Origin: Chitinophaga pinensis
Lineage (GTDB): Bacteria; Bacteroidota; Bacteroidia; Chitinophagales; CAMDFR01
Assembly (NCBI GenBank): GCA_945860705.1
Contig: CAMART010000031.1
Coordinates: 1 to 36,753, forward strand
DNA: 36,753 nt
Direction: 5' to 3'
In this document: positions 6,071 to 31,191 of the stretch, one piece after another
Layout of the letters: every line of letters starts with the position of its first letter
Numbering within the stretch: the stretch's first letter is position 1
Position numbers and translations under genes: made by a program
Notes under the pieces: generated by a model
What the model was told of the DNA's origin: nothing
Database searches by the model: none
The model's input: only the letters and a program-made list of their open reading frames with translations

Positions 6071-6078
6071 TACTTTTG
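6071..6078 (+). promoter_or_regulatory. -7 promoter element of the lamin-tail gene
   Basis: TACTTTTG, an exact TAnnTTTG match, 30 bases before the ATG at 6109 (39 before the alternative ATG at 6118). No clear -33 element. Confidence 0.5.
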
Positions 6079-6108: not shown

Positions 6109-7089
6109 ATGAAATCAATGAAAAATTTTTTACTTATTACATTAGTTGCTATTATATCTTTTAATTTACAAGCTCAATGTACAGATCTATTTATCTCTGA
6201 ATATGTAGAAGGGAATCAATCAAACAAAGCATTAGAATTATACAATCCTACAAGTTCTCCTATCAACTTAGCCAACTATCAAATTCACAGATGGAATAAT
6301 GGTGCAGATATTAGAGATGCTGGATATACCCTTGTATTATCTGGTACAATTCCAGCTAAAGGTACTTGGGTGTTAGTAAAAGATACAAATGCAACAGAAA
6401 TAGTATATTTTGGATTAAGAAATAAAGCAAATGCTTTTGTAACAGCATCATGTGGAACTGGCTCTACTAATAGAACTATGTGTCACAATGGTAATGACGC
6501 CATTACACTTGAAAGAGTAGCGGGTAATACTGTAGTTGATATTTTTGGTCAAATAGGAATAGATCCTGGAAATCCTGCAGCAGGTGGAGGATGGAATGCC
6601 AATCCAGCTTCAGATTATATATCTGCAGATTCATCAGGTGATGTATGGACTACTGACAACACCCTTATAAGAAAACATACAGTATTAACTGGTGTAACTA
6701 CCAACCCTGGTGGAGGAGGATCTGTAAACGAATTTAATATTTCTACAGAATGGAAAAGAGAGGGCTTCAACATGTTTGATAGTCTTGGTTCTCATAATTG
6801 TAATTGCCTAAATTTTAATAGTATTTTGAACCCAAACAATTCACTTAGTTTTGAAGTATATCCAAATCCTACATCTTCTATAATAAATATAGAAAGTGCC
6901 GAACAAATTTCTACAATCACTATTTCAGGTATTAATGGCGCAACATATTTCAATCAAGATTACAAAAATGCTTCTATTAATACAGTAGTAGTAAACTTAA
7001 AAGAAATGAAATTGACTAGTGGAGAATATCTACTAACTGTAATAGCTAAAAATGGTGCGAAAACTACAAAAAGAGTAAGCTTCAACTAA
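6109..7089 (+). CDS. secreted lamin-tail-domain protein with T9SS sorting signal
   Basis: Predicted cell-surface or released protein. Signal peptide (MKNFLLITLVAIISFNLQAQ); the start may be 6109 (MKSMKNF) or 6118 (MKNF). From residue about 24, DLFISEYVEGNQSNKALELYNPT is the lamin-tail domain start seen in ExeM-type extracellular nucleases, but no nuclease domain follows. Four cysteines in the middle may form disulfides. Residues about 248-326 are a type A T9SS C-terminal domain (FEVYPNPTSS ... GEYLLTVIAKNGAKTTKRVSFN). It is the first of three same-strand genes with a TonB receptor and an endonuclease I, which suggests a partner role in binding or processing extracellular DNA. That role is inference; the domains are clear. 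Confidence 0.87.
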   Translation: MKSMKNFLLITLVAIISFNLQAQCTDLFISEYVEGNQSNKALELYNPTSSPINLANYQIHRWNNGADIRDAGYTLVLSGTIPAKGTWVLVKDTNATEIVYFGLRNKANAFVTASCGTGSTNRTMCHNGNDAITLERVAGNTVVDIFGQIGIDPGNPAAGGGWNANPASDYISADSSGDVWTTDNTLIRKHTVLTGVTTNPGGGGSVNEFNISTEWKREGFNMFDSLGSHNCNCLNFNSILNPNNSLSFEVYPNPTSSIINIESAEQISTITISGINGATYFNQDYKNASINTVVVNLKEMKLTSGEYLLTVIAKNGAKTTKRVSFN

Positions 7090-7106
7090 TAGTTTCTAAA
7101 TATTTA

Positions 7107-7142
7107 AAAAGTTGTTTATGACCATGTCTAAACAACTTTTTT
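7107..7142 (+). terminator. terminator-like hairpin between the lamin-tail gene and the TonB receptor gene
   Basis: Perfect 12-bp stem, AAAAGTTGTTTA (7107-7118) with TAAACAACTTTT (7129-7140), 10-base loop, then T residues. It ends only about 21 bases before the receptor ATG, with no recognisable promoter in between, so it may act as a partial terminator. Confidence 0.8.
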
Positions 7143-7163
7143 CATTTTATACAATTTACAATT

Positions 7164-10100
7164 ATGAAAAAAATTATTCCTTTATTTGTTGTTCTATTTT
7201 TCAATAGTATATTGATAGCACAAACCGGTACACTCAAAGGACATGTAAAAGATGGAGCTACAGGAGAATCGTTATTTGGTGTTGTAATTAATACTAAAGA
7301 AGGTAAACCAGTAGTAAGTGACATTGATGGTAATTTTTCTATCATACTTCCTTATGGAACTAATGTGGTAAAAGCAACCTATTTTGGATATCAAGATATG
7401 GAGCGATCAGTAAATATTAAATCTGCTGAACAAACATTAAATCTTGATATGAATAGTCAAACTTTAAAAGAAGTACAGATCACTACTGATATTGCAAAAT
7501 CTAGAGAAACTCCTATTGCGTTTTCAAACATCAATTTACAAAAACTAAAAGAAGATATGGGTAGTAGAGATATACCCATGCTACTCAATAGTACACCAGG
7601 AGTATATGCTACTACACGTGGAGGTGGAGAAGGTGATGCACGTGTAAGTATTAGAGGTTTTAATCAGCGTTTTATTGCAGTATTGATAGATGGTGTACCT
7701 GTGAATGATATGGAAAACGGAGAAGTATATTGGAGCAATTGGTTTGGTCTAGATGCTGTTACTAGAAATATACAAGTACAAAGAGGTTTGGGAAACTCAA
7801 AACTTGCTATACCTTCAGTAGGTGGTACTATGAATATTATGACCAAAGGTATAGATCAAAAATCAGAAATATCTATAAAGCAGGAGTTAATTGGTGACGA
7901 TATGATGAAAAAATACGATAGAGTATCTTTCAATGCACTACGAACTACTTTGATGTTTAACTCTGGTAAACTAAAAAATGGGTGGGGCGTTACAGCAAGT
8001 GCATCATACAAACAAGGGGATGGATATGTATTTGGAAATAACCATCGAGGTGGTTTTTACTACGTAAAAGTAGAGAAAAAGTTTAAAAATCAAACGTTGA
8101 GTTTATCTGCTTTTGGTGCTCCACAATGGCATGGAACCAGAAATGGAAGACAACTTGTACAAGCTCTTGATAGAGATTTTGCTGCAAATTTATTCAAAGG
8201 TACACAACAAGAGTATGATGAGATGATCTCAATGAATCAAGGATTGAATGAAGTAAGACAAAACCCAGGCGATTTGGCTATTAGAGAAAAATACAATCAA
8301 ATGTATAATAGCTTACAAGTAATTGACTCTTCAAATTTTTTCAATCTATTTAATTCAAGTGATTTTATAGATACGACTGGCGCGCAAAATTTTGGTCAAA
8401 GATATAATGATGTGTGGGCTCAAATACAACGATATAATAATCCAGATGATACTACTCAAGGTAGAATGAAACCTGAAATATATAACTATAGCCGAAATAC
8501 ATACCACAAACCTCAAATCACTTTAAGACATACCTGGTCACCATCTGAAAAATTCTTTTTAGTGACTACTCTTTATACATCTATAGGCATAGGTGGAGGA
8601 AACTCTACAGAAGGAAATAATATACCTATAGATAGAATCACTGGTGACCTAGATGGACAGATAGTATATGATGCCAATGTAAATAGACCTAGTGGATTAT
8701 CTAAAACTATAGTAAGACAAAGTTTTAATAATCACTATTGGGTAGGTGGCTTATCTACTTTTGAATATAAACCATTTAATTTTCTAAGTGTATCAGGAGG
8801 TGTAGATGCTCGATACTACAAGGGGATTCACTACAGACAAATTTATGATTTATATGGAGGAGATTATTTTCAAGAAGCTAGAGTTACTAACTACAATAGA
8901 AGTTTAAAAGATTCATTAAGATTAGGTGATAGAATAGGTTATGATTATGATGGGATTGTATCATATGCTGGTGCATTTGCTTTAGCTGAATACAAGAAAA
9001 AAGATTTTAGTATATTCATCAATCTTTCTGGAGGAGCTACTTTCTACGATAAGGTAGATAGATTTGCAAGAAAAGATTTGACTATAGATGGTAATAAAAT
9101 AAATACTGCAGTAGGTTTTGGAGATACGCTGTACTACAATGGTAGTGATTATCTAGTAGCATATAATGGCAGAGAAGTGAGAACAAATGGGGATACTACT
9201 TTTATAAAATATTCTCCAAGTAACGAACAATTTATTGTAGGAGCAGATCAAATATTCACTTCATCATCTGCACAAGCTTCTACTTTTAGACTTGGCAATA
9301 CTACAATACCTAGCTTTACTATCAAAGCAGGTTTCAACTATAATATAAATGAAAAAAACAACGTATTTATCAATGCAGGGTATATCAGTAAAGCACCACC
9401 CTACAATGCAGTAATACCAAATAATAGAAATTCAGTTTCATTAAATTATAAAAATGAAAATATCATTGCTTTTGAAGTAGGATATGGATTAAAAACTAAA
9501 TTTGTAAATATATCATTGAATGCATACGTGACAGATTGGAAGAACAAACCAACAACTAGAACTCTATCTGACCCTACTAATCCGGATATTTCTGAGGCTG
9601 TATATATACCCGGTTTAAATGCTAATCATATAGGCGCTGAAATAGAAGTAGGTATAAAACCTCATAAAAAACTTAGTATAGATGGATTTTTATCATATGG
9701 AGATTGGAGATGGAGTAGCTCAAATACTTTTACTTATACTTTTGCAACTGGATTTACAGATACAATTAGTTTTGATGCCACTGGAGTGCATGTAGGTGAT
9801 GCAGCACAATTTCAAGTAGGTGGTAGCGTGAGATACGAACCTATCAAAGGACTTTATTTCAAACCACAAATCGTATATTTTGGAAAAAACTTTGCTGATT
9901 TCAGTCCAGAAAGATTAGTAGGAGTGAATGCTGGTAGAGATTCTTGGAGAATGCCTTCATACTACAATCTAGATTTTTCAATGGGATATAGATATGATTT
10001 TATGAAAAGATATGCAGTGACTTTTAGACTTAATTTATTCAATATCACCAATACAACATTTATTGCAGATGCAAGTAATAATGCCAATGCACAGTATAGA

Positions 10101-10217
10101 GATTTTGATGCAAAAAGCGCCACAATATTTTTTGGTCAAGGCTTTAGATGGAATTTTGGTGTAGAATTTTCTTTGATGAATTTCTTAGAAAAGAAAGAAG
10201 TAGTAGCACCAAAATAA
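7164..10217 (+). CDS. TonB-dependent outer-membrane receptor with carboxypeptidase-regulatory-like domain
   Basis: Outer-membrane beta-barrel that imports a ligand using TonB energy. Signal peptide (KKIIPLFVVLFFNSILIAQ), then a carboxypeptidase-regulatory-like beta domain (GTLKGHVKDGATGESLFGVVI ... YFGYQD, residues about 22-100), a plug domain (about 120-225: RDIPMLLNSTPGVYATT, VSIRGFNQRFIAVLIDGVPVND, QVQRGLG) and a long 22-strand-type barrel to the C-terminus. 1017 residues is normal for the class. No SusD-like lipoprotein gene is adjacent, so it is not a standard glycan SusCD pair. Neighbours are a lamin-tail protein and a secreted nuclease; a nucleotide, DNA fragment or metal ligand is possible. 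The barrel end departs from a strict terminal Phe (it ends VVAPK). Confidence 0.93.
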   Translation: MKKIIPLFVVLFFNSILIAQTGTLKGHVKDGATGESLFGVVINTKEGKPVVSDIDGNFSIILPYGTNVVKATYFGYQDMERSVNIKSAEQTLNLDMNSQTLKEVQITTDIAKSRETPIAFSNINLQKLKEDMGSRDIPMLLNSTPGVYATTRGGGEGDARVSIRGFNQRFIAVLIDGVPVNDMENGEVYWSNWFGLDAVTRNIQVQRGLGNSKLAIPSVGGTMNIMTKGIDQKSEISIKQELIGDDMMKKYDRVSFNALRTTLMFNSGKLKNGWGVTASASYKQGDGYVFGNNHRGGFYYVKVEKKFKNQTLSLSAFGAPQWHGTRNGRQLVQALDRDFAANLFKGTQQEYDEMISMNQGLNEVRQNPGDLAIREKYNQMYNSLQVIDSSNFFNLFNSSDFIDTTGAQNFGQRYNDVWAQIQRYNNPDDTTQGRMKPEIYNYSRNTYHKPQITLRHTWSPSEKFFLVTTLYTSIGIGGGNSTEGNNIPIDRITGDLDGQIVYDANVNRPSGLSKTIVRQSFNNHYWVGGLSTFEYKPFNFLSVSGGVDARYYKGIHYRQIYDLYGGDYFQEARVTNYNRSLKDSLRLGDRIGYDYDGIVSYAGAFALAEYKKKDFSIFINLSGGATFYDKVDRFARKDLTIDGNKINTAVGFGDTLYYNGSDYLVAYNGREVRTNGDTTFIKYSPSNEQFIVGADQIFTSSSAQASTFRLGNTTIPSFTIKAGFNYNINEKNNVFINAGYISKAPPYNAVIPNNRNSVSLNYKNENIIAFEVGYGLKTKFVNISLNAYVTDWKNKPTTRTLSDPTNPDISEAVYIPGLNANHIGAEIEVGIKPHKKLSIDGFLSYGDWRWSSSNTFTYTFATGFTDTISFDATGVHVGDAAQFQVGGSVRYEPIKGLYFKPQIVYFGKNFADFSPERLVGVNAGRDSWRMPSYYNLDFSMGYRYDFMKRYAVTFRLNLFNITNTTFIADASNNANAQYRDFDAKSATIFFGQGFRWNFGVEFSLMNFLEKKEVVAPK

Positions 10218-10284
10218 ATATATAATAGTACCTTTATAAGAATAAATCAACTAAATAATTATCATAAATAAACTAAATTAACAA

Positions 10285-12516
10285 ATGAAAAAAACATTAT
10301 TATTTTTTGCTTCAATAATAGCGAGTATAGGTATGATGGCACAAGCTCCCGTTCCTACTAATTGGGATTGTGCTGGTGCATTACCTACTGGATACTCAGA
10401 AATAGAACTGACCTCTAGCAACTCGTATGTAGCTCCTTTATGTGTATCTACTCCTGCATCATATAAAATGGATAGAACTGGAGAAGCGCTTACTCTATGG
10501 GTAAATGATGTACCAGGAGCATTATCTTATCAACTAAGAGGAACAGGCTCAGGCACATGGTCTGGAACTATGACGGTACAAGAAAGTGTAGATGGATCTA
10601 TATGGACTACATTACATACATATACCAATGCAGATGTAAATACTACTTCATTCATTTTACAAACAGATATTCCAAATACTACTTCGAGATATATCCGTTT
10701 TTTTTACACAAACAAAGTAAGTGGATTTAATTTAGCAATTGATGATATAGCTATTGCTATACCTTCTGCTGGACCAGCTCAAGAAATTGCAGCAAATTTT
10801 TCTACTGCTAACGTAGCTAATAATAGTACTATTTACTTTGCTAGTCCTGTAGGAACTGCATCGCCAATAGTAGTGAATTTAGAAAACTTAGGAACAGTAA
10901 ACACATTGAATATCACTAGTGCTCTTATCTCTGGTGTTGCTGCTACAGATTACAGTATCACTTCCTCTCCTACTTCAGTAGCTGCATTAGGGACTGCTCC
11001 TATCAATATCACTTTCAATCCTAGCATGGCAGGAACTAGAACCGCTGTATTGACTATAGCAAATGATGATGCGGATGAAAATCCATTTGTAATAAATCTA
11101 AATGGAATTGGTGGCTCTTTTGCTACTGAGCCTATGAGTAACCCAACTGCAATGAGTTTTACAAATATAAAACCTTGGAAAATGACTGCAAGTTGGATAA
11201 AATCTACTGCAGATGGATTTATTGTATTGAGAAAAGAAGGTAGTGCTGTAACGGATGCTCCTGTAGATGGTCAAGTATATGATGTAGGTATGGGTATTGG
11301 TACTTCTAAAGTATTTTTTGTAGGCGATGGTGACTCTGCAAAAATTCAAGAAATGGTAGCAAATTCTACTTATCACTATGCTGTTTTTGCATACAATGGT
11401 ATTGCTAATTTCACAAACTACAAACAATCTAGCCCATTGGTAGGTAGCCAAACTAGTTCAGGACTAAATGCAGGAACATATTATAGCACAGTAGATAGCA
11501 ATGCAGCATCTTTTGTAACTGACCTGACAAGCAAAATAAATAATCATTTTCAAATATTCTATAGCGACTATGACAATACTATTATACCTAACTATTTCCT
11601 AAGAGATACTACTGGAGATGATAAAGTATTTAACTGTGATTATAGTGGTGAAACAAAAATATTTACACCTCCTTTTGGATTTGTAGGAACTAATAGTAGT
11701 AGAGAACACTGTTTTGCATCTAGTTGGATGCCTACATTTGGAACTACTGGTCATGAAGATAAAGAAGCATACTCAGATTTATTTAATCTAAAACTTGCTA
11801 ATCAAGATGATGTAAATGCACCAAGAAGCAATAGAGCTTTTGGTGAACCGCTTACAAGTACTACTAATTATCTATTAGCTACATTTGGAACAGATGCTGT
11901 AGGACATAAAGTATTCTCCCCTCGTACAGATTTTAGAGGAGATGTAGCACGTTCATTATTTTATATGACTACATGCTATCACAATGCAGACAATGATGGA
12001 AGTATCAATAGTTGGTCATGGAATAGCATCAGAGTAGCAGCATCATTTGGTGATACAGCATGGACTCTTTCTTCAAAACTAAACCAAAGCTTGATGAAAC
12101 AATGGGCACAACTAGACCCACCAAGTAATGAAGAAATGGCTAGAGCTGAATATATATATAGCATACAAAACAATAGAAATCCATACATAGATCATCCATC
12201 TTGGATTTGCTTAGTAGATTTTACTACTATGAACAAAACAGTAAACTGCAATGTAGGTATCAATGATATAGATGCTACTATACAAGCTTCAGTATATCCA
12301 AATCCTACTTCAGATTTTATCAATATAGATCTTGATGAAAAACTAAACAAGGATGCAGTAATCTCACTTGCTGATATGACTGGAAAAACTGTTTTTGAAG
12401 TGAGTACAGATGCTATAGCATCTACTATCAATACTTCTTCATTTGCAAAAGGTATGTATACGCTTACTATCTCATCTGAAGGAAGAATGGTGAAAAAGAA
12501 AATAATCATTCAATAA
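10285..12516 (+). CDS. secreted multidomain endonuclease I family protein with T9SS sorting signal
   Basis: Predicted extracellular nonspecific DNase. Signal peptide (MKKTLLFFASIIASIGMMAQ), an N-terminal beta domain, a choice-of-anchor-D/Ig-like domain (residues about 160-270, PINITFNPSMAGTRTAVLTIANDD), a fibronectin-III-like segment, then an endonuclease I (EndA/NucM/Vvn) domain from about 390 to 650. This has Arg473-Glu474-His475 (the RExH-type metal and general-base pair), NAPRSN (511-516, metal-ligand Asn region), FRGDVARSLFYMTTCY and the closing NRNPYIDHPSW. The usual DLH[HN]L is DLFNL here. Residues about 665-743 are a type A T9SS domain (VYPNPTSDFINI ... RMVKKKIIIQ). It is downstream of the TonB receptor and ends in a strong terminator. 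Confidence 0.9.
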   Translation: MKKTLLFFASIIASIGMMAQAPVPTNWDCAGALPTGYSEIELTSSNSYVAPLCVSTPASYKMDRTGEALTLWVNDVPGALSYQLRGTGSGTWSGTMTVQESVDGSIWTTLHTYTNADVNTTSFILQTDIPNTTSRYIRFFYTNKVSGFNLAIDDIAIAIPSAGPAQEIAANFSTANVANNSTIYFASPVGTASPIVVNLENLGTVNTLNITSALISGVAATDYSITSSPTSVAALGTAPINITFNPSMAGTRTAVLTIANDDADENPFVINLNGIGGSFATEPMSNPTAMSFTNIKPWKMTASWIKSTADGFIVLRKEGSAVTDAPVDGQVYDVGMGIGTSKVFFVGDGDSAKIQEMVANSTYHYAVFAYNGIANFTNYKQSSPLVGSQTSSGLNAGTYYSTVDSNAASFVTDLTSKINNHFQIFYSDYDNTIIPNYFLRDTTGDDKVFNCDYSGETKIFTPPFGFVGTNSSREHCFASSWMPTFGTTGHEDKEAYSDLFNLKLANQDDVNAPRSNRAFGEPLTSTTNYLLATFGTDAVGHKVFSPRTDFRGDVARSLFYMTTCYHNADNDGSINSWSWNSIRVAASFGDTAWTLSSKLNQSLMKQWAQLDPPSNEEMARAEYIYSIQNNRNPYIDHPSWICLVDFTTMNKTVNCNVGINDIDATIQASVYPNPTSDFINIDLDEKLNKDAVISLADMTGKTVFEVSTDAIASTINTSSFAKGMYTLTISSEGRMVKKKIIIQ

Positions 12517-12541: not shown

Positions 12542-12578
12542 AAAAGAAGCATAGAAAAATCTATGCTTCTTTTTTTTG
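12542..12578 (+). terminator. intrinsic terminator after the endonuclease gene
   Basis: Perfect 14-bp stem, AAAAGAAGCATAGA (12542-12555) with TCTATGCTTCTTTT (12560-12573), AAAA loop, followed by T residues. It separates the nuclease locus from the repeat protein gene. Confidence 0.9.
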
Positions 12579-12625: not shown

Positions 12626-13024
12626 ATGAAAATTTTAAACATAATTTTATTTGTTGCATTTATTGCATTTTCTACACATCAAACACATGCACAAGAACTA
12701 CGCAAAAATGGTTCATCTTATGCTAAAATAGAATCGGATGGTACCGTGCGTATCAATGGCTCATCGGTAGGAAAATTTGAATCGGATGGAACTATACGAG
12801 CAAACGGCTCATCGGTAGGTAAAATAGAATCTGACGGCACTATACGCCAAAACGGCTCATCTGTAGGTAAAGTAGAATCAGATGGTACAGTGCGTATAAA
12901 TGGTTCATCTGTTGGAAAGATAGAATCTGATGGCACTATACGCAAAAATGGTTCATCAGTAGGCTCTGCACCCGGAGTAAGAAAAGAATATGCGGCAGTA
13001 TTATTCTTCTTCAACTTTTTCTAG
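12626..13024 (+). CDS. small secreted five-repeat protein (five-fold beta-flower type)
   Basis: 132 residues: signal peptide MKILNIILFVAFIAFSTHQTHAQ, then five consecutive 16-residue repeats (residues 27-106), unit [x]NGSSVGKIESDGTIR, a sixth partial unit (KNGSSVGS) and an aromatic end AAVLFFFNFF. Five such Gly/Ser repeats with a hydrophobic tail match what I know as five-fold beta-flower proteins of Bacteroidota, structures solved without an assigned function; this match is from memory. Six of its seven arginines use CGN codons, while neighbouring genes mostly use AGA, so it may be recently acquired or biased by repeat amplification. It lies between a strong terminator and a shared terminator with clpB, so it is probably transcribed alone. 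Confidence 0.85.
   Translation: MKILNIILFVAFIAFSTHQTHAQELRKNGSSYAKIESDGTVRINGSSVGKFESDGTIRANGSSVGKIESDGTIRQNGSSVGKVESDGTVRINGSSVGKIESDGTIRKNGSSVGSAPGVRKEYAAVLFFFNFF
12704..12943 (+). repeat. five in-frame 48-bp tandem repeats
   Basis: Five units of exactly 48 bp (12704, 12752, 12800, 12848, 12896), sharing the core GG[CT]TCATC[GT]GT and GAATC[GTA]GA[TC]GG. Differences are mostly at third codon positions, so the copies are old enough to have drifted but are held at protein level. They code for the repeats of the small secreted protein. Confidence 0.95.
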
Positions 13025-25381: not shown

Positions 25382-28300
25382 TTAGTTTACTATTAGTTTT
25401 TTAGTTATCAATTTACCCTCAAAACTTATATTTATTACATATAAGCCTTTAGCTAAATCTTTGGTACTTATTTGCGCTATCTGTGCAAAAGTTTTTCTTG
25501 TATCTATAACAGCACCTGTCGCAGAGATAATTTGAATCATTTTTTCTCCTGGAGACGACATATTTATGTATGAAATATTATCACTAGGATTTGGGAAAAT
25601 AGATACTTCAAAATCTGATTGAATAGCATTGAAAACAGAGGTATTTGTGTCCACAGGTGCTAACTTATAGTTGGCAGTAAAAGTTGCATCTCTATTGATA
25701 TTTGTTTTAAAATCAATAGCGAGTGTATCTGATATAAACTCACTAGTATCCCAATGAGAAAATTCATATGAAGGATAAGCATGTGCTTCAAGATCTACTG
25801 AATTACCATCAAAATATACACCTGACCATGGATAATAGGGAGCAGTGATAGTGCTTATTCTTACATTACCAGCACCTGGAGGATTTACTCTTAATGTAAT
25901 ATTCACTTCTTTTTCAAGATTAAAAACATCTATGATTTGGTCTTGAACAAAATCAGTTCTAAGATTTATAAATTCTTTAAAAGTATTTCTAATATCATTA
26001 AATTCGCTGATATGTGTAACTATGTTATTCGTATCGCTATCTTGCCATCTCAGTATTTGTTTATCCCATTCTGGTATTGCTTCATCCCACATAGCATCTA
26101 ATTTAGATATGGCAGTGTCTGGGAGCATATCAGAGTTGAGCAAATCTGCATATCTATTTATAAAGAAATTTCTATAGGAGCGATTTTCTAATAACTTAAA
26201 ATAAATATCTACATAGGTATATCCTCTACTTCCATCCATATAGCCAAACATATTATCCCAGTAATTTCCCCATCCTGCTAGTCCCCATTCCATATCTTGT
26301 AATGCAAATTTCCATCTATTATCAAGATTTCGCATTCTTAAAAACTTCATATTATTCCATATCCAATCATAGTTTGCCCAATAATTTTCTAAGGTCATAT
26401 AGTTAGCAAAATTTTTAACATCCAAAACTCTATTTGCATTTCTCAGAAAATTTGGATCAGTAGTATCTAAAGACATAATATAACCATGTGTAGTAAACCA
26501 GTCCAAATCAGAGCCTTCCAATGTTCTGATAACGCCAGGACCAGTAGAATAAGATACCGAAAGTATATCTACACTGTCTTTATTAGCCCCATAGTTATTT
26601 TTTAAATAATCATCAGTATACTTTTCTCTTAACTCATATAGGCCAAAATACTCCCCATTTAATAAAACCACTACAGGTCTATAAGCATTATAAATAGCAA
26701 AAGTGTCTGCTCTACTTACTCTTTCCATAAATGCTTCTTTAAAGAATACATTATTCCAAAAATTACTACCATTTCTCAAATAGATACTTGCATATTTATC
26801 TACATGTGGTTTATCAGGTATCAATACACTATTGATTACACCATCTCCAAAATTCGCATTATCAAAATCCATTCTGAAACTTCTCTGAGGATTGCCTCTA
26901 CTTCCTCCTGCTCCACCATCTATTCTTATGGATGATTTTTGTGAAGCTATCAAAGAATTATCTATATCAAATATATCTATATGACAAGGAACTCTGTAGT
27001 TGCTCCAAGGATTATCAATAATGCCTGACCATCCAAATAGGTCTGTACTATCAGCAGTAATGCTATAAATTGGAACTGTATAATCTTCATTAAACAAATA
27101 AGTTTTTGCATCTATAAAGCTGGGTAAATAATTAGTGGTATTAAAAGCTCTTGCTTTTAAAATAGTAGTATTTGATATGGATAATGGTGAAGTATATATT
27201 GGTGAAGTACTAGTAGGATCTTGTCCATTCAGTGTATACCTTATAACACCAGAAGTGGTAGAGTTATTTAATATAGTTGCAGTCTGTGTAGCACCATAAA
27301 CAGCACTTTGAAGAAGTATAGTTGGCTTATTTTCAATCCCTATGTATGGTGTTGATGAGTTATTAGAATATCCAGGAGTTGCATTATCAAAATATCTCAT
27401 GACATTTATTCCATCGGTATATCTGCCCCTACTTTCATTTGGATTTGTATTGCCTGCAACCATACTATCAATTATACTGCTAGATAGGTTTGATAGATAT
27501 AATATTTCACCAGAGTTGGCTAATTGAAAATTAGAATGTATATTACCTGCATATACAGTAGATACAAATGAAAACCAAGATGGAGGTGCTGGAAAAAAGC
27601 TAGATCCATTTTCTACCAAAAAACTTAGTGTAGGTATTGAAGTTAAATCAGAAGATGTAGTATCTGTATTATGCACCTGTATAGCTATATCATTTGTCCC
27701 ATTTCTAATTGTTCTTTTTAATAAATTTCTATCTATAAAAAAAGTTTCTGGAGCTGAAGCTCCTGTATATAAATTTGCTTCGTGATCATAAGCTGTTTCG
27801 TTCCATGCAGGTGGCGACCCCCACATATTTGCTCTAGATATTTCTACGCCATTTAGGTATACTACAAATCCATCATCATAATCCATATTTAGAATAGCAT
27901 TGATTATTTTTGATGTATCTGGTATAGAAAAACTATATCGCATATACACAGCAAAACAATTTGGTACAATAGTGCTATCATCCCCATCTCCATATCCTAT
28001 ACCACTCTTACCAAGTGGCCACGATGCATCATCAAAACCTAATTCTCTCCATGTTGGGTCTGCAGTATCACTAGATACTACATAACGCCAGAAATCGCCT
28101 TGCTTTACTGCAGTCTCCCAATGATGTGTAGTGATAGGAGCTTCATATGCACCCTTATTTTTACTTGAAGCATAAATCAATTGGAAATCATTTGGAGCTA
28201 AATTTCTATCTGGCAATCTAAATTTTGTAAGATTGTTTCTTTTATCGCTTATATAATAATTAGATAAATTTATTGTTAGAGTTGAATTATTATATAACTC

Positions 28301-28435
28301 AAACCAACTTTTTGCATCATAGTCTTCATCAAATAAAATGGATTTATTGTTTGTACAAACTTCATTTATTTTTAATTGAGTGTAGCTATATTTAAATAAA
28401 AAAAGCAAACAAATAAGTGCATATATGTATTTCAT
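25382..28435 (-). CDS. secreted lamin-tail / CotH-kinase-like protein with T9SS sorting signal
   Basis: 1017 residues. Signal peptide (MKYIYALICLLFLFKYSYTQ), lamin-tail domain (KINEVCTNNKSILFDEDYDAKSWFELYNN, about 21-75), a beta-sandwich region with DDGFVVYLNGVEISRAN (about 120-270), a second lamin-tail-like stretch, a chitobiase/hexosaminidase C-terminal-like repeat (VIRYTLNGQDPTSTSPIYT), then a CotH domain (about 460-850; SSIRIDGGAGGSRG, VVVLLNGEYFGLYELREKY, WKFALQDMEWGLA). It ends in a type A T9SS domain (VSIFPNPSDN ... GKLITKKLIVN). CotH-like proteins are atypical protein kinases in spore coats; in this architecture their target is unknown. It has its own -7 element and is likely monocistronic. 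Confidence 0.88.
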   Translation of the reverse strand: MKYIYALICLLFLFKYSYTQLKINEVCTNNKSILFDEDYDAKSWFELYNNSTLTINLSNYYISDKRNNLTKFRLPDRNLAPNDFQLIYASSKNKGAYEAPITTHHWETAVKQGDFWRYVVSSDTADPTWRELGFDDASWPLGKSGIGYGDGDDSTIVPNCFAVYMRYSFSIPDTSKIINAILNMDYDDGFVVYLNGVEISRANMWGSPPAWNETAYDHEANLYTGASAPETFFIDRNLLKRTIRNGTNDIAIQVHNTDTTSSDLTSIPTLSFLVENGSSFFPAPPSWFSFVSTVYAGNIHSNFQLANSGEILYLSNLSSSIIDSMVAGNTNPNESRGRYTDGINVMRYFDNATPGYSNNSSTPYIGIENKPTILLQSAVYGATQTATILNNSTTSGVIRYTLNGQDPTSTSPIYTSPLSISNTTILKARAFNTTNYLPSFIDAKTYLFNEDYTVPIYSITADSTDLFGWSGIIDNPWSNYRVPCHIDIFDIDNSLIASQKSSIRIDGGAGGSRGNPQRSFRMDFDNANFGDGVINSVLIPDKPHVDKYASIYLRNGSNFWNNVFFKEAFMERVSRADTFAIYNAYRPVVVLLNGEYFGLYELREKYTDDYLKNNYGANKDSVDILSVSYSTGPGVIRTLEGSDLDWFTTHGYIMSLDTTDPNFLRNANRVLDVKNFANYMTLENYWANYDWIWNNMKFLRMRNLDNRWKFALQDMEWGLAGWGNYWDNMFGYMDGSRGYTYVDIYFKLLENRSYRNFFINRYADLLNSDMLPDTAISKLDAMWDEAIPEWDKQILRWQDSDTNNIVTHISEFNDIRNTFKEFINLRTDFVQDQIIDVFNLEKEVNITLRVNPPGAGNVRISTITAPYYPWSGVYFDGNSVDLEAHAYPSYEFSHWDTSEFISDTLAIDFKTNINRDATFTANYKLAPVDTNTSVFNAIQSDFEVSIFPNPSDNISYINMSSPGEKMIQIISATGAVIDTRKTFAQIAQISTKDLAKGLYVINISFEGKLITKKLIVN

Positions 28436-28567: not shown

Positions 28568-29083
28568 TTAAATTCTTTTCTTCATTTTATCCCAAACTTC
28601 AAAATAAAGATCATATTTATTATCTTCATTTTTTATTTGAAGACGAGATGAGTTGAGTGTCCACTCATGAGTAGTGAAACTAGGGAAATAAGCATCAGCA
28701 TTACCAAACATTTCATTGACTTTGGTCATATATATTTTATCTGCGAGCTTCATAGTCTGCTCATATATTTTGGCACCACCTATTATGAAAAGTTCTTTTT
28801 CTCCATTATTTTTTGCATGCTCAATACCTGCTTCTACACTATGAAAACAATGGATATTTTCATCTGTAAAAGTGACGTTTGAGCTTATAACAATATTTTC
28901 TCTACCGGATAATGGGCGAAATTTTTTAGGTATAGATTCGTAGGTGATTCTACCCATAAGTACATGATGTCCCATTGTAGTTTCTTTGAAATAAGCCATA
29001 TCTGCTGGTAAATGCCAAAGTAAATCACCATTAGCACCAATTTCATTTTTAAGTCCGCAAGCTACTATTAAGGATATTTTCAT
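28568..29083 (-). CDS. folA: dihydrofolate reductase
   Basis: Reduces dihydrofolate to tetrahydrofolate with NADPH, regenerating the cofactor used by thymidylate synthase. 171 residues, a normal chromosomal DHFR. MKISLIVACGLKNEIG, GDLLWHLPADMAYFK with catalytic Asp28 and Trp23, the NADPH loop MGRITYESIP (43-52), ISSN and FIIGGAKIYEQ are all in place. thyA is on the same strand 1.2 kb upstream, with tryptophan dioxygenase between them. It has its own -7 element, with a 14-bp palindrome just upstream of it. Confidence 0.96.
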   Translation of the reverse strand: MKISLIVACGLKNEIGANGDLLWHLPADMAYFKETTMGHHVLMGRITYESIPKKFRPLSGRENIVISSNVTFTDENIHCFHSVEAGIEHAKNNGEKELFIIGGAKIYEQTMKLADKIYMTKVNEMFGNADAYFPSFTTHEWTLNSSRLQIKNEDNKYDLYFEVWDKMKKRI

Positions 29084-29101
29084 GTCTTTTATTTATTCAT
29101 T

Positions 29102-29127
29102 CAAAAATACTCTATATTCATGAATAT
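29102..29127 (-). promoter_or_regulatory. folA promoter with an adjacent perfect palindrome
   Basis: On the minus strand TATTTTTG (29102-29109) is a -7 element 18 bases before the folA ATG. Just upstream of it ATATTCATGAATAT (29114-29127) is a perfect 14-bp palindrome lying in the promoter spacer, a possible operator. Confidence 0.4.
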
Positions 29128-29168
29128 TCATTATTAATTACAAACAATAAAAATCATATATATAAAAT

Positions 29169-30086
29169 CTATTGAAGATTATGTCCCCAATTTTCTATTT
29201 CTTCATCTGACCAAACTTCTGGAAAAAATATTCTTCTTTGATATCTAGGCAACATATATTTTCGCCAGTCACTTCCTCCTGTAGCCTCTCCACTTCCTAT
29301 ATATTTTGCTGCTGCATGATAGTGTGCCATTACCCATGTAATATTTACAGTATAGTCATAGTGGCGCATTGCTTTTATTAATTCTTCATCTTTTCTAACT
29401 TCGTCTGGTAGTTGCTTGAATTTGGTATAAAGATTAGTAGTATTATATCCTTCCATTTTATCCAAGAACATTTGCTTATATTTTTTTTCAAAATTCAACA
29501 ACAAAGCATTCTTTTTACCAGTTGCATGGTCATTACCAGCTGCTTGCCAATATAAGTGATCAAATGCATGTTCATAAGGAGTATTTCTATCTATAGTAGC
29601 TCTAAATCTAAAATCAATTAGATTGATTAACTCAGTAGATGCAAATTCTATTAAACGGTATTGTGCACTTTGAAAACCACTTGCAGGAGTAAGTGTATTT
29701 CTAAATTTCATATATTGTTCTTTTTCCATACCATCACCCATGATATCAAATGAAGTAGAAAGCATATCAAAATATCGACTAATTCTTCTCAATTTTTCTG
29801 TGAAAAAAGCAGCTTCTATTTTATCGCATTTACTTACTTGGTCTATTTCCCATAGTATCATTTTAAATAACAATTCATTGATTTGATGATACATAATAAA
29901 TACCATTTCATCAGGCAATGTAGTTCTTTGTACTTGAAGACCCAATAAAGCTTCTGGCAGGATATAATCCCAATAAGTAATAGGATTGGCCCAAACCAAT
30001 CCTTCTAAATGTACATCTGGATTTTGATCTATAGCTTCATATTTTTTTGAAATTCTTGCTACTAAATCTTCTTGTTCGTGTGTCAT
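29169..30086 (-). CDS. kynA: tryptophan 2,3-dioxygenase
   Basis: Heme enzyme that opens the indole ring of L-tryptophan to N-formylkynurenine, the first step of the kynurenine pathway. 305 residues, near the bacterial norm of about 280-300. The family motifs are VWANPITYWDYILPEALLGLQ, MVFIMYHQINELLFKMILWE (distal-side region), FRNTLTPASGFQSAQYRLIEF, and the proximal heme region WVMAHYHAAAKYIGSGEATGGSDWRKYM, close to the consensus GTGGS. No other kynurenine-pathway gene is next to it; it sits between thyA and folA. No -7 element is obvious upstream. Confidence 0.95.
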   Translation of the reverse strand: MTHEQEDLVARISKKYEAIDQNPDVHLEGLVWANPITYWDYILPEALLGLQVQRTTLPDEMVFIMYHQINELLFKMILWEIDQVSKCDKIEAAFFTEKLRRISRYFDMLSTSFDIMGDGMEKEQYMKFRNTLTPASGFQSAQYRLIEFASTELINLIDFRFRATIDRNTPYEHAFDHLYWQAAGNDHATGKKNALLLNFEKKYKQMFLDKMEGYNTTNLYTKFKQLPDEVRKDEELIKAMRHYDYTVNITWVMAHYHAAAKYIGSGEATGGSDWRKYMLPRYQRRIFFPEVWSDEEIENWGHNLQ

Positions 30087-30198
30087 ATTGTTAGATTTTA
30101 AATTTTATTTTTTACTAATGATTTTTGATAATCAATATTTATAAATGATAAATAATATAAATTAAATAGATTTTAACTTTAAATAATAAAGTCTGATA

Positions 30199-30245
30199 AG
30201 CGAAAGGATTATTTCGCTAAAGTATATAAACTAAGACGGTCGTCT
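30199..30245. promoter_or_regulatory. two short inverted repeats between thyA and tryptophan dioxygenase
   Basis: AGCGAAA (30199-30205) pairs with TTTCGCT (30212-30218), and AGACG (30234-30238) with CGTCT (30241-30245). Both lie in the 222-bp spacer where no promoter was recognised. They are stem-loops or operator-like sites of unknown role. Confidence 0.3.
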
Positions 30246-30309
30246 AATAATATTTTTCCAAATATTCATATTGTAAATATGTATAAAATAAATGTAAAAA
30301 CAAAATAAA

Positions 30310-31191
30310 CTATACGCTCACTGCTGCTTTTATGTGTGGTTGTGCTTCGTAATTCACCAATTCAAAATCTTCATATTTAAAATCAAAAATAGAAGTGACT
30401 GCTGGATTTATTTTCATCTGTGGAAGTAGTCCTGGCTTACGTTCTAGTTGTATTTTTGCTTGCTCTAAATGATTTAAATACAAATGCGTATCTCCTAAAG
30501 TATGAACAAAATCTCCCAATCCAAAACCACATACTTGTGCTATCATCATGGTGAGTAATGCATATGAAGCAATATTGAAAGGTACGCCCAAAAATGTATC
30601 GGCACTTCTTTGATAGAGTAGACAAGAAAGCTTATTGTCGGCTACATAAAACTGAAATAAACAATGACAAGGTGGCAATGCCATTTCATTGATATAAGGA
30701 ACATTCCAAGCACTGATGATATGTCTTCTTGAATCTGGATTTTTTTTCAATTGTGAGATCAATTCACTTATTTGGTCTATAGCTTGTCCATTGGGTGCTG
30801 GCCAGCTTCTCCACTGATAGCCATATACAGGTCCAAGATTACCATATTTCTTTGCAAATTCACTATCTGTTGCTACTCTTTCAGAAAATTCTTTGATGCT
30901 TTCTCCATTGTATGCTGCTGATTTTTGATAAGAAGCAAAAGGCCAATCATCCCAAATACGCACTCCATTTTTTGCTAAATATTCAATATTAGTATCGCCT
31001 TGAAGAAACCAAAGCAATTCGTGTATGATAGATTTTGTGTGTAGTTTTTTAGTAGTAAGCAAAGGAAAACCTTCTTCTAAATTGAAGCGCATTTGATATC
31101 CAAAAATACTTTTAGTACCTGTACCAGTTCTATCTTTTTTTTCTACACCTTCGTCTAATATCTTTTTTAGTAAATCTAAATATGCTTGCAT
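30310..31191 (-). CDS. thyA: thymidylate synthase
   Basis: Methylates dUMP to dTMP with methylene-tetrahydrofolate, releasing dihydrofolate, which FolA (encoded downstream) recycles. 293 residues, longer than the 264 of E. coli because of an insertion around residues 85-120 ([24 protein letters not shown]), a known variation in the family. Motifs: [42 protein letters not shown], the nucleophile Cys175 in [29 protein letters not shown] and [12 protein letters not shown]. The last residues HIKAAVSV match the usual end, where the C-terminus closes the active site. Confidence 0.97.

Follow-up and report, generated by a model that had tools for sequence, protein, structure and literature searches.

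A conserved trio of lamin-tail protein, TonB-dependent receptor and secreted nuclease in Bacteroidota: a candidate locus for extracellular DNA scavenging

The window analysed here is a stretch of 36,753 nucleotides from Chitinophaga pinensis (contig CAMART010000031.1). It carries three neighbouring genes that code for a secreted lamin-tail domain (LTD) protein, a TonB-dependent receptor (TBDT) and a secreted nuclease. The genes (as called from open reading frames) and the possible transcript signals around them are:

6071..6078, + strand: TACTTTTG, possible Bacteroidota -7 promoter box, 30 nt upstream of the LTD gene
6109..7089, + strand: secreted LTD protein, 326 aa, with a signal peptide, LTD at aa 22-148 and a T9SS type A tail at aa 250-322
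7164..10217, + strand: TBDT, 1017 aa, with CarbopepD_reg_2 at aa 24-104, Plug at aa 113-213 and the barrel to the end
10285..12516, + strand: secreted surface nuclease, 743 aa, with a signal peptide and a T9SS type A tail at aa 670-742
11518..12198, + strand: Endonuclease I catalytic domain (PF04231), aa 412-638 of the nuclease
12542..12573, no strand assigned: 14-bp hairpin with a T/A-rich tail, possible terminator, 26 nt downstream of the nuclease gene

A sequence-only reading of this DNA had described three same-strand genes in a row, two of them with T9SS tails, and no SusD partner, and all of this was borne out. The open reading frames at 6109-12516 are all on the + strand, separated by gaps of 74 nt (LTD to TBDT) and 67 nt (TBDT to nuclease). 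A motif search placed the -7 box upstream of the LTD gene and in neither of the two gaps, and the trio may be carried on one transcript; the box itself is weak evidence because such motifs abound across the window (96 observed against 59 expected). Terminator-like sites number four against 2.1 expected, the hairpin site being listed there on the - strand. Por_Secre_tail scores 30.7 bits on the LTD protein and 59.9 bits on the nuclease (cut-off 27), as for type A cargo of the T9SS. The genome must have this secretion system, since its translocon SprA is present; this and the other pathway checks in the window's own genome were single family searches. In Riemerella, a stand-alone endonuclease I is depleted among the secreted proteins of a T9SS (gldM) mutant (PMC6549377). 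The neighbouring proteins of the window that were scanned have no SusD domain.

Other genes of the window can be noted in passing. Immediately 3′ of the trio (12626-13024, + strand) lies a gene for a small secreted repeat protein (PF21785, 5-fold beta-flower) whose repeats, ‘NGSSVGKxESDGTxR’, are near-identical; no such protein was seen at the loci of congeners. Outside the trio, a second LTD protein of 1017 aa (25382-28435, - strand) combines LTD, chitobiase-type and CotH kinase domains with a T9SS tail. Close by (28568-31191, - strand) are dihydrofolate reductase and thymidylate synthase genes with a tryptophan-dioxygenase-like gene in between.

The LTD protein matches PF00932 (E=3.7e-15) and Por_Secre_tail (E=3.9e-07) and has a conserved region that ends in an H-x-C-x-C motif. 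Its N-terminus had been likened in style to that of the ExeM nuclease, a likeness that holds for this part and fails for the full length: the match to the ExeM model (NF033680) covers positions 2-131 of 884 at 62 bits, far below the family cut-off of 1300, and a nuclease (EEP) domain is missing, so the protein is ExeM-like in its N-terminal part only. The predicted structure (pLDDT 85) matches lamin A/C Ig domains and T9SS tails. Trio LTD proteins are acidic (median pI 4.5), with no basic charge signature. We propose that the protein could act as a surface DNA-binding or adaptor partner.

The TBDT model has the ordinary fold of its class, structurally tied among BtuB, FecA, PqqU and FhuA at 12-17% identity, and because of this tie the fold is uninformative on substrate. 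The sequence-only reading would have been undone by a receptor that grouped with known siderophore or vitamin receptors, and it did not: similarity to these by sequence is at plug level only, and the equivalog models score far below their cut-offs (TonB-B12 32.6 against 599.7 bits; MxcH 22.4 against 925). NCBIfam likewise gives no hit to the SusC model (E ≤ 1), and with SusC homologues in the PDB only N-terminal parts align. The VIA-align structural comparison also has no SusC homologue among the matches listed, which carries no weight. Charge was considered as a sign of DNA binding and rejected, trio TBDTs having a median pI of 5.9 and no basic signature. It is gene context that suggests a substrate, and on that ground the TBDT is proposed to be an importer of DNA fragments.

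The clearest pointer in that context is the third gene. The nuclease has weak F5/8-type and choice-of-anchor D/fn3 modules before its Endonuclease I domain, which belongs to PF04231 (94.2 bits, cut-off 25) and is the sole endonuclease I that the genome (2.94 Mb) encodes. Among the 27 endonuclease I members found in trios, R473-E474-H475 and N511 are kept in all, R514 and N516 in 25, and D498 in 25 to 27. The R-E-H, N and R-x-N positions are known to be catalytic in EndA/Vvn-type enzymes. Across trio loci, the third gene codes for an endonuclease I in 26, whereas 43 have a PLD-family protein in its place, of which 39 retain both HKD motifs. The endonuclease I and PLD folds are unrelated but share one reaction, and nucleases are found in both families. 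Since the type of nuclease is swapped while the TBDT and the LTD protein are retained, nucleic acid would be what the system handles, and this exchange is the strongest sign of it. Many trio relatives have an OB-like/DUF5689 domain N-terminal to the nuclease, which is not found in the window nuclease. Separately, four loci (L036, L038, L039 and L196) have an endonuclease I beside an LTD-OB-T9SS protein and no trio TBDT, joined in L038 and L196 by an adjoining Exo_endo_phos_3 nuclease; this cluster looks like a further secreted nuclease set of Bacteroidota.

Conservation of the neighbourhood had been named as a check on the trio, and the trio passed it. Named genomes were scanned with a receptor alignment, and the best 80 loci were taken by receptor similarity alone, ignoring neighbours. 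Where there was room on both sides, LTD gene, TBDT gene and nuclease gene stood in that order in 57 of 62 of these loci. The two neighbours, neither of which was in the query, can also be counted singly: the LTD gene is upstream of the TBDT in 67 of 70 and the nuclease downstream in 62 of 67. With the full trio in 57/62, the linkage is not a matter of chance. In two of the five exceptions (L076 and L130), the LTD gene lies between the TBDT and a PLD nuclease. The best 80 loci include metagenome-assembled genomes labelled Saprospirales, Chitinophagales, Bacteroidales, Flavobacteriales and Crocinitomicaceae, and the same order recurs in three congeneric genomes and in one genome from another family of the order, while the flanks vary. 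The trio is thus a widely conserved system in Bacteroidota. An independent set of 198 evenly sampled Bacteroidia genomes has related TBDTs at 77 places in 73 genomes; at 38 of the 77, an endonuclease I gene follows downstream in the same orientation, a count that leaves out PLD members and in which many of the remaining places are sister TBDTs without the trio. About 30 trio loci in Flavobacteriales and Bacteroidales (for example, L057 and L102) are adjoined, in either orientation, by GT2 and dihydroorotase-like amidohydrolase genes. They were not counted as functional partners, since they seem to be chromosomal neighbours that have simply been retained.

Immediately downstream of the trio, six loci have a pair of genes, one with a 5′-nucleotidase C-terminal domain and one with a metallophosphatase domain. 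The window's genome has such a 5′-nucleotidase pair elsewhere: one half is a lipoprotein, and the start of the other is Tat-like. No nucleotidase adjoins the window's own trio, which counts against a scavenging role, and a search for phosphate (Pho) regulation that did not go deep found no evidence of it. The literature gives reason to expect that DNA can be food: EndA of Shewanella is needed mainly for using DNA as a phosphorus source (PMC6085458), and among Bacteroidota, Lutibacter assimilates DNA carbon and sediment genomes encode secreted nucleases and periplasmic nucleotidases (PMC8289736). Because that study mentions neither ‘TonB’ nor ‘outer membrane’, it leaves the import step open.

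We favour a reading in which digestion of DNA at the cell surface is coupled to TonB-dependent import of the fragments for nutrition, with a probability of roughly 60%; DNA as the substrate is our deduction from the genes. The T9SS would export the endonuclease and the LTD protein and anchor both at the cell surface, where the endonuclease would cut extracellular DNA. The LTD protein may hold the DNA or dock the nuclease onto the TBDT, which would import the resulting oligonucleotides or nucleotides, and in the periplasm the 5′-nucleotidases (lipoprotein half and metallophosphatase half) would free phosphate and nucleosides. DNA or nucleotide scavenging fits because endonuclease I and PLD are swapped and 5′-nucleotidases adjoin the trio in some loci. 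Cutting of DNA and import of its pieces was also the job first proposed for these genes, and these two observations support it. We infer DNA as the physiological substrate, fragment import by the TBDT, a nutritional purpose and the function assigned to the LTD protein from features that are themselves observed: gene content, secretion signals, catalytic residues, synteny, the exchange of two nucleases and, in some relatives, the 5′-nucleotidase linkage.

The main rival, a live though less likely one, is that the trio serves chiefly to let DNA through the outer membrane in natural transformation: the TBDT would admit longer DNA to the periplasm, the surface nuclease would trim or nick it into loadable ends, and ComEC would carry a single strand through the inner membrane. 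The precedent is in Riemerella anatipestifer, where transformation requires both the outer-membrane CarboxypepD_reg protein RA0C_RS04915 and the adjacent RA0C_RS04920 (DUF5689/DUF5017); according to the authors' proposal, the two proteins bind DNA and pass it on (PMC8459023). Transformation is also lower in Riemerella tonB mutants, though one effect is perhaps indirect, through iron (PMC8383284). Twenty DUF5689 loci from other genomes (L192-L211), matched to Riemerella by architecture, were compared. In 19 of the 20 there is a TBDT of one clade, with an adjacent DUF5689 protein in 18 of the 19 and an Exo_endo_phos_3 nuclease at most three genes away in 14 of the 19. L205 resembles Riemerella in having DUF5689 together with a weak match to DUF5017; L193 encodes a DUF5689-PLD-T9SS nuclease built like those of the trios; and L196 has an endonuclease I with an OB/T9SS protein. 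Against a profile of the DUF5689-type TBDTs, the window TBDT reaches 214 bits and the next best TBDT of its genome 45. In family searches, that genome has ComEC and no secretin, so that DNA would have to cross the outer membrane by some other route.

The combination of TBDT, DUF5689 lipoprotein and nuclease is a distant sister system with the architecture of the Riemerella pair. Like the trio, the pair joins a CarbopepD_reg TBDT-like outer-membrane protein to a partner gene, and DUF5689-type loci usually have a nuclease near. The partner, however, is a DUF5689/anchor-J protein rather than an LTD protein, the TBDT sequence is distant, and the known role is transformation. DUF5689 is absent from the window's genome, and with it the Riemerella-type adjacency of DUF5689 protein and TBDT. 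The link to Riemerella is one of architecture. In the tree, DUF5689-type TBDTs form one clade and trio-type TBDTs another, and between them, closer to the trio, stand orphan sister TBDTs with no adjacent nuclease; because these orphans are the nearer kin, receptor kinship alone does not reveal function, and they count against the feeding reading as well as against transformation. Some of the sisters (L212-L215) are solitary, in some genomes beside a glucose-6-phosphate isomerase-like gene. Two further points weigh against transformation: a nuclease at the entry point would degrade the transforming DNA, and the 5′-nucleotidase neighbours indicate feeding. To our knowledge ComEC is also nearly universal, which weakens its presence as a sign of transformation. 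Feeding and transformation need not exclude one another. A tentative and rather doubtful extension would unite them: a TBDT family in two versions, one LTD-linked with a secreted nuclease and the other DUF5689-linked with an EEP, PLD or EndoI nuclease, might move DNA itself across the outer membrane, for feeding and transformation, in bacteria without secretin-based uptake.

It is improbable that the nuclease feeds the cell while nucleotides pass through porins and the TBDT imports something co-released, such as a metal ion complex, a phosphate-rich ligand or a peptide. The structural tie of the TBDT among BtuB, FecA, PqqU and FhuA would allow this, as would its nearest tree relatives, which have no nuclease neighbours; the linkage of TBDT, LTD protein and nuclease, however, is very strict even though the nuclease fold is swapped. 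Least of all do we expect the TBDT to be Oar-like, helping to export its neighbours at a locus for biofilm DNA remodelling or DNA-trap defence: it has a carboxypeptidase-regulatory domain and a plug, and the TBDT Oar of Myxococcus, as far as it is cited in PMC8383284, is needed for PopC export, but with T9SS tails on both the LTD protein and the nuclease and SprA in the genome an export route is already available.

DNA capture and import, the favoured reading, would make the trio a relative in plan of several known systems. Like SusC/SusD polysaccharide loci (PULs), it brings together a surface hydrolase, a surface partner and a TonB-dependent transporter with a CarbopepD_reg domain; unlike them, it has no SusD or SusC match, its enzyme is a nuclease, it has T9SS tails, and an LTD protein takes the place of SusD. 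In Shewanella, ExeM and EndA degrade extracellular DNA with similar parts (LTD, OB-fold and nuclease modules, and an endonuclease I), but ExeM is a single protein that combines LTD, OB and nuclease, and no TBDT is linked to it (PMC6085458), whereas in the trio these parts are on separate proteins around a TBDT and are exported by the T9SS. The DNA-degradation loci of Candidatus Izemoplasmatales (PMC8289736) also serve DNA foraging and bring extracellular nucleases together with transporters and an LTD protein; those bacteria, however, have no outer membrane, and use ABC transporters and no TBDT. The trio had been thought not to be a described system, and no description turned up in the open-access literature, the scope of a search that set subscription papers and preprints aside. 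It could be seen as a nucleic-acid version of the Bacteroidota surface capture-and-import locus, of known plan but with a different enzyme, partner and export route.

Bacteroidota are reported to play an important part in breaking down environmental DNA, and natural competence is known in some of them, but how DNA or its fragments cross their outer membrane is undescribed in the open-access literature searched. A conserved TBDT tied to an exchangeable surface nuclease offers a specific candidate gene for DNA import. If the favoured reading is true, nucleic acids would join the substrates of TonB-dependent transport, and the trio would be a marker of DNA foraging in metagenomes.
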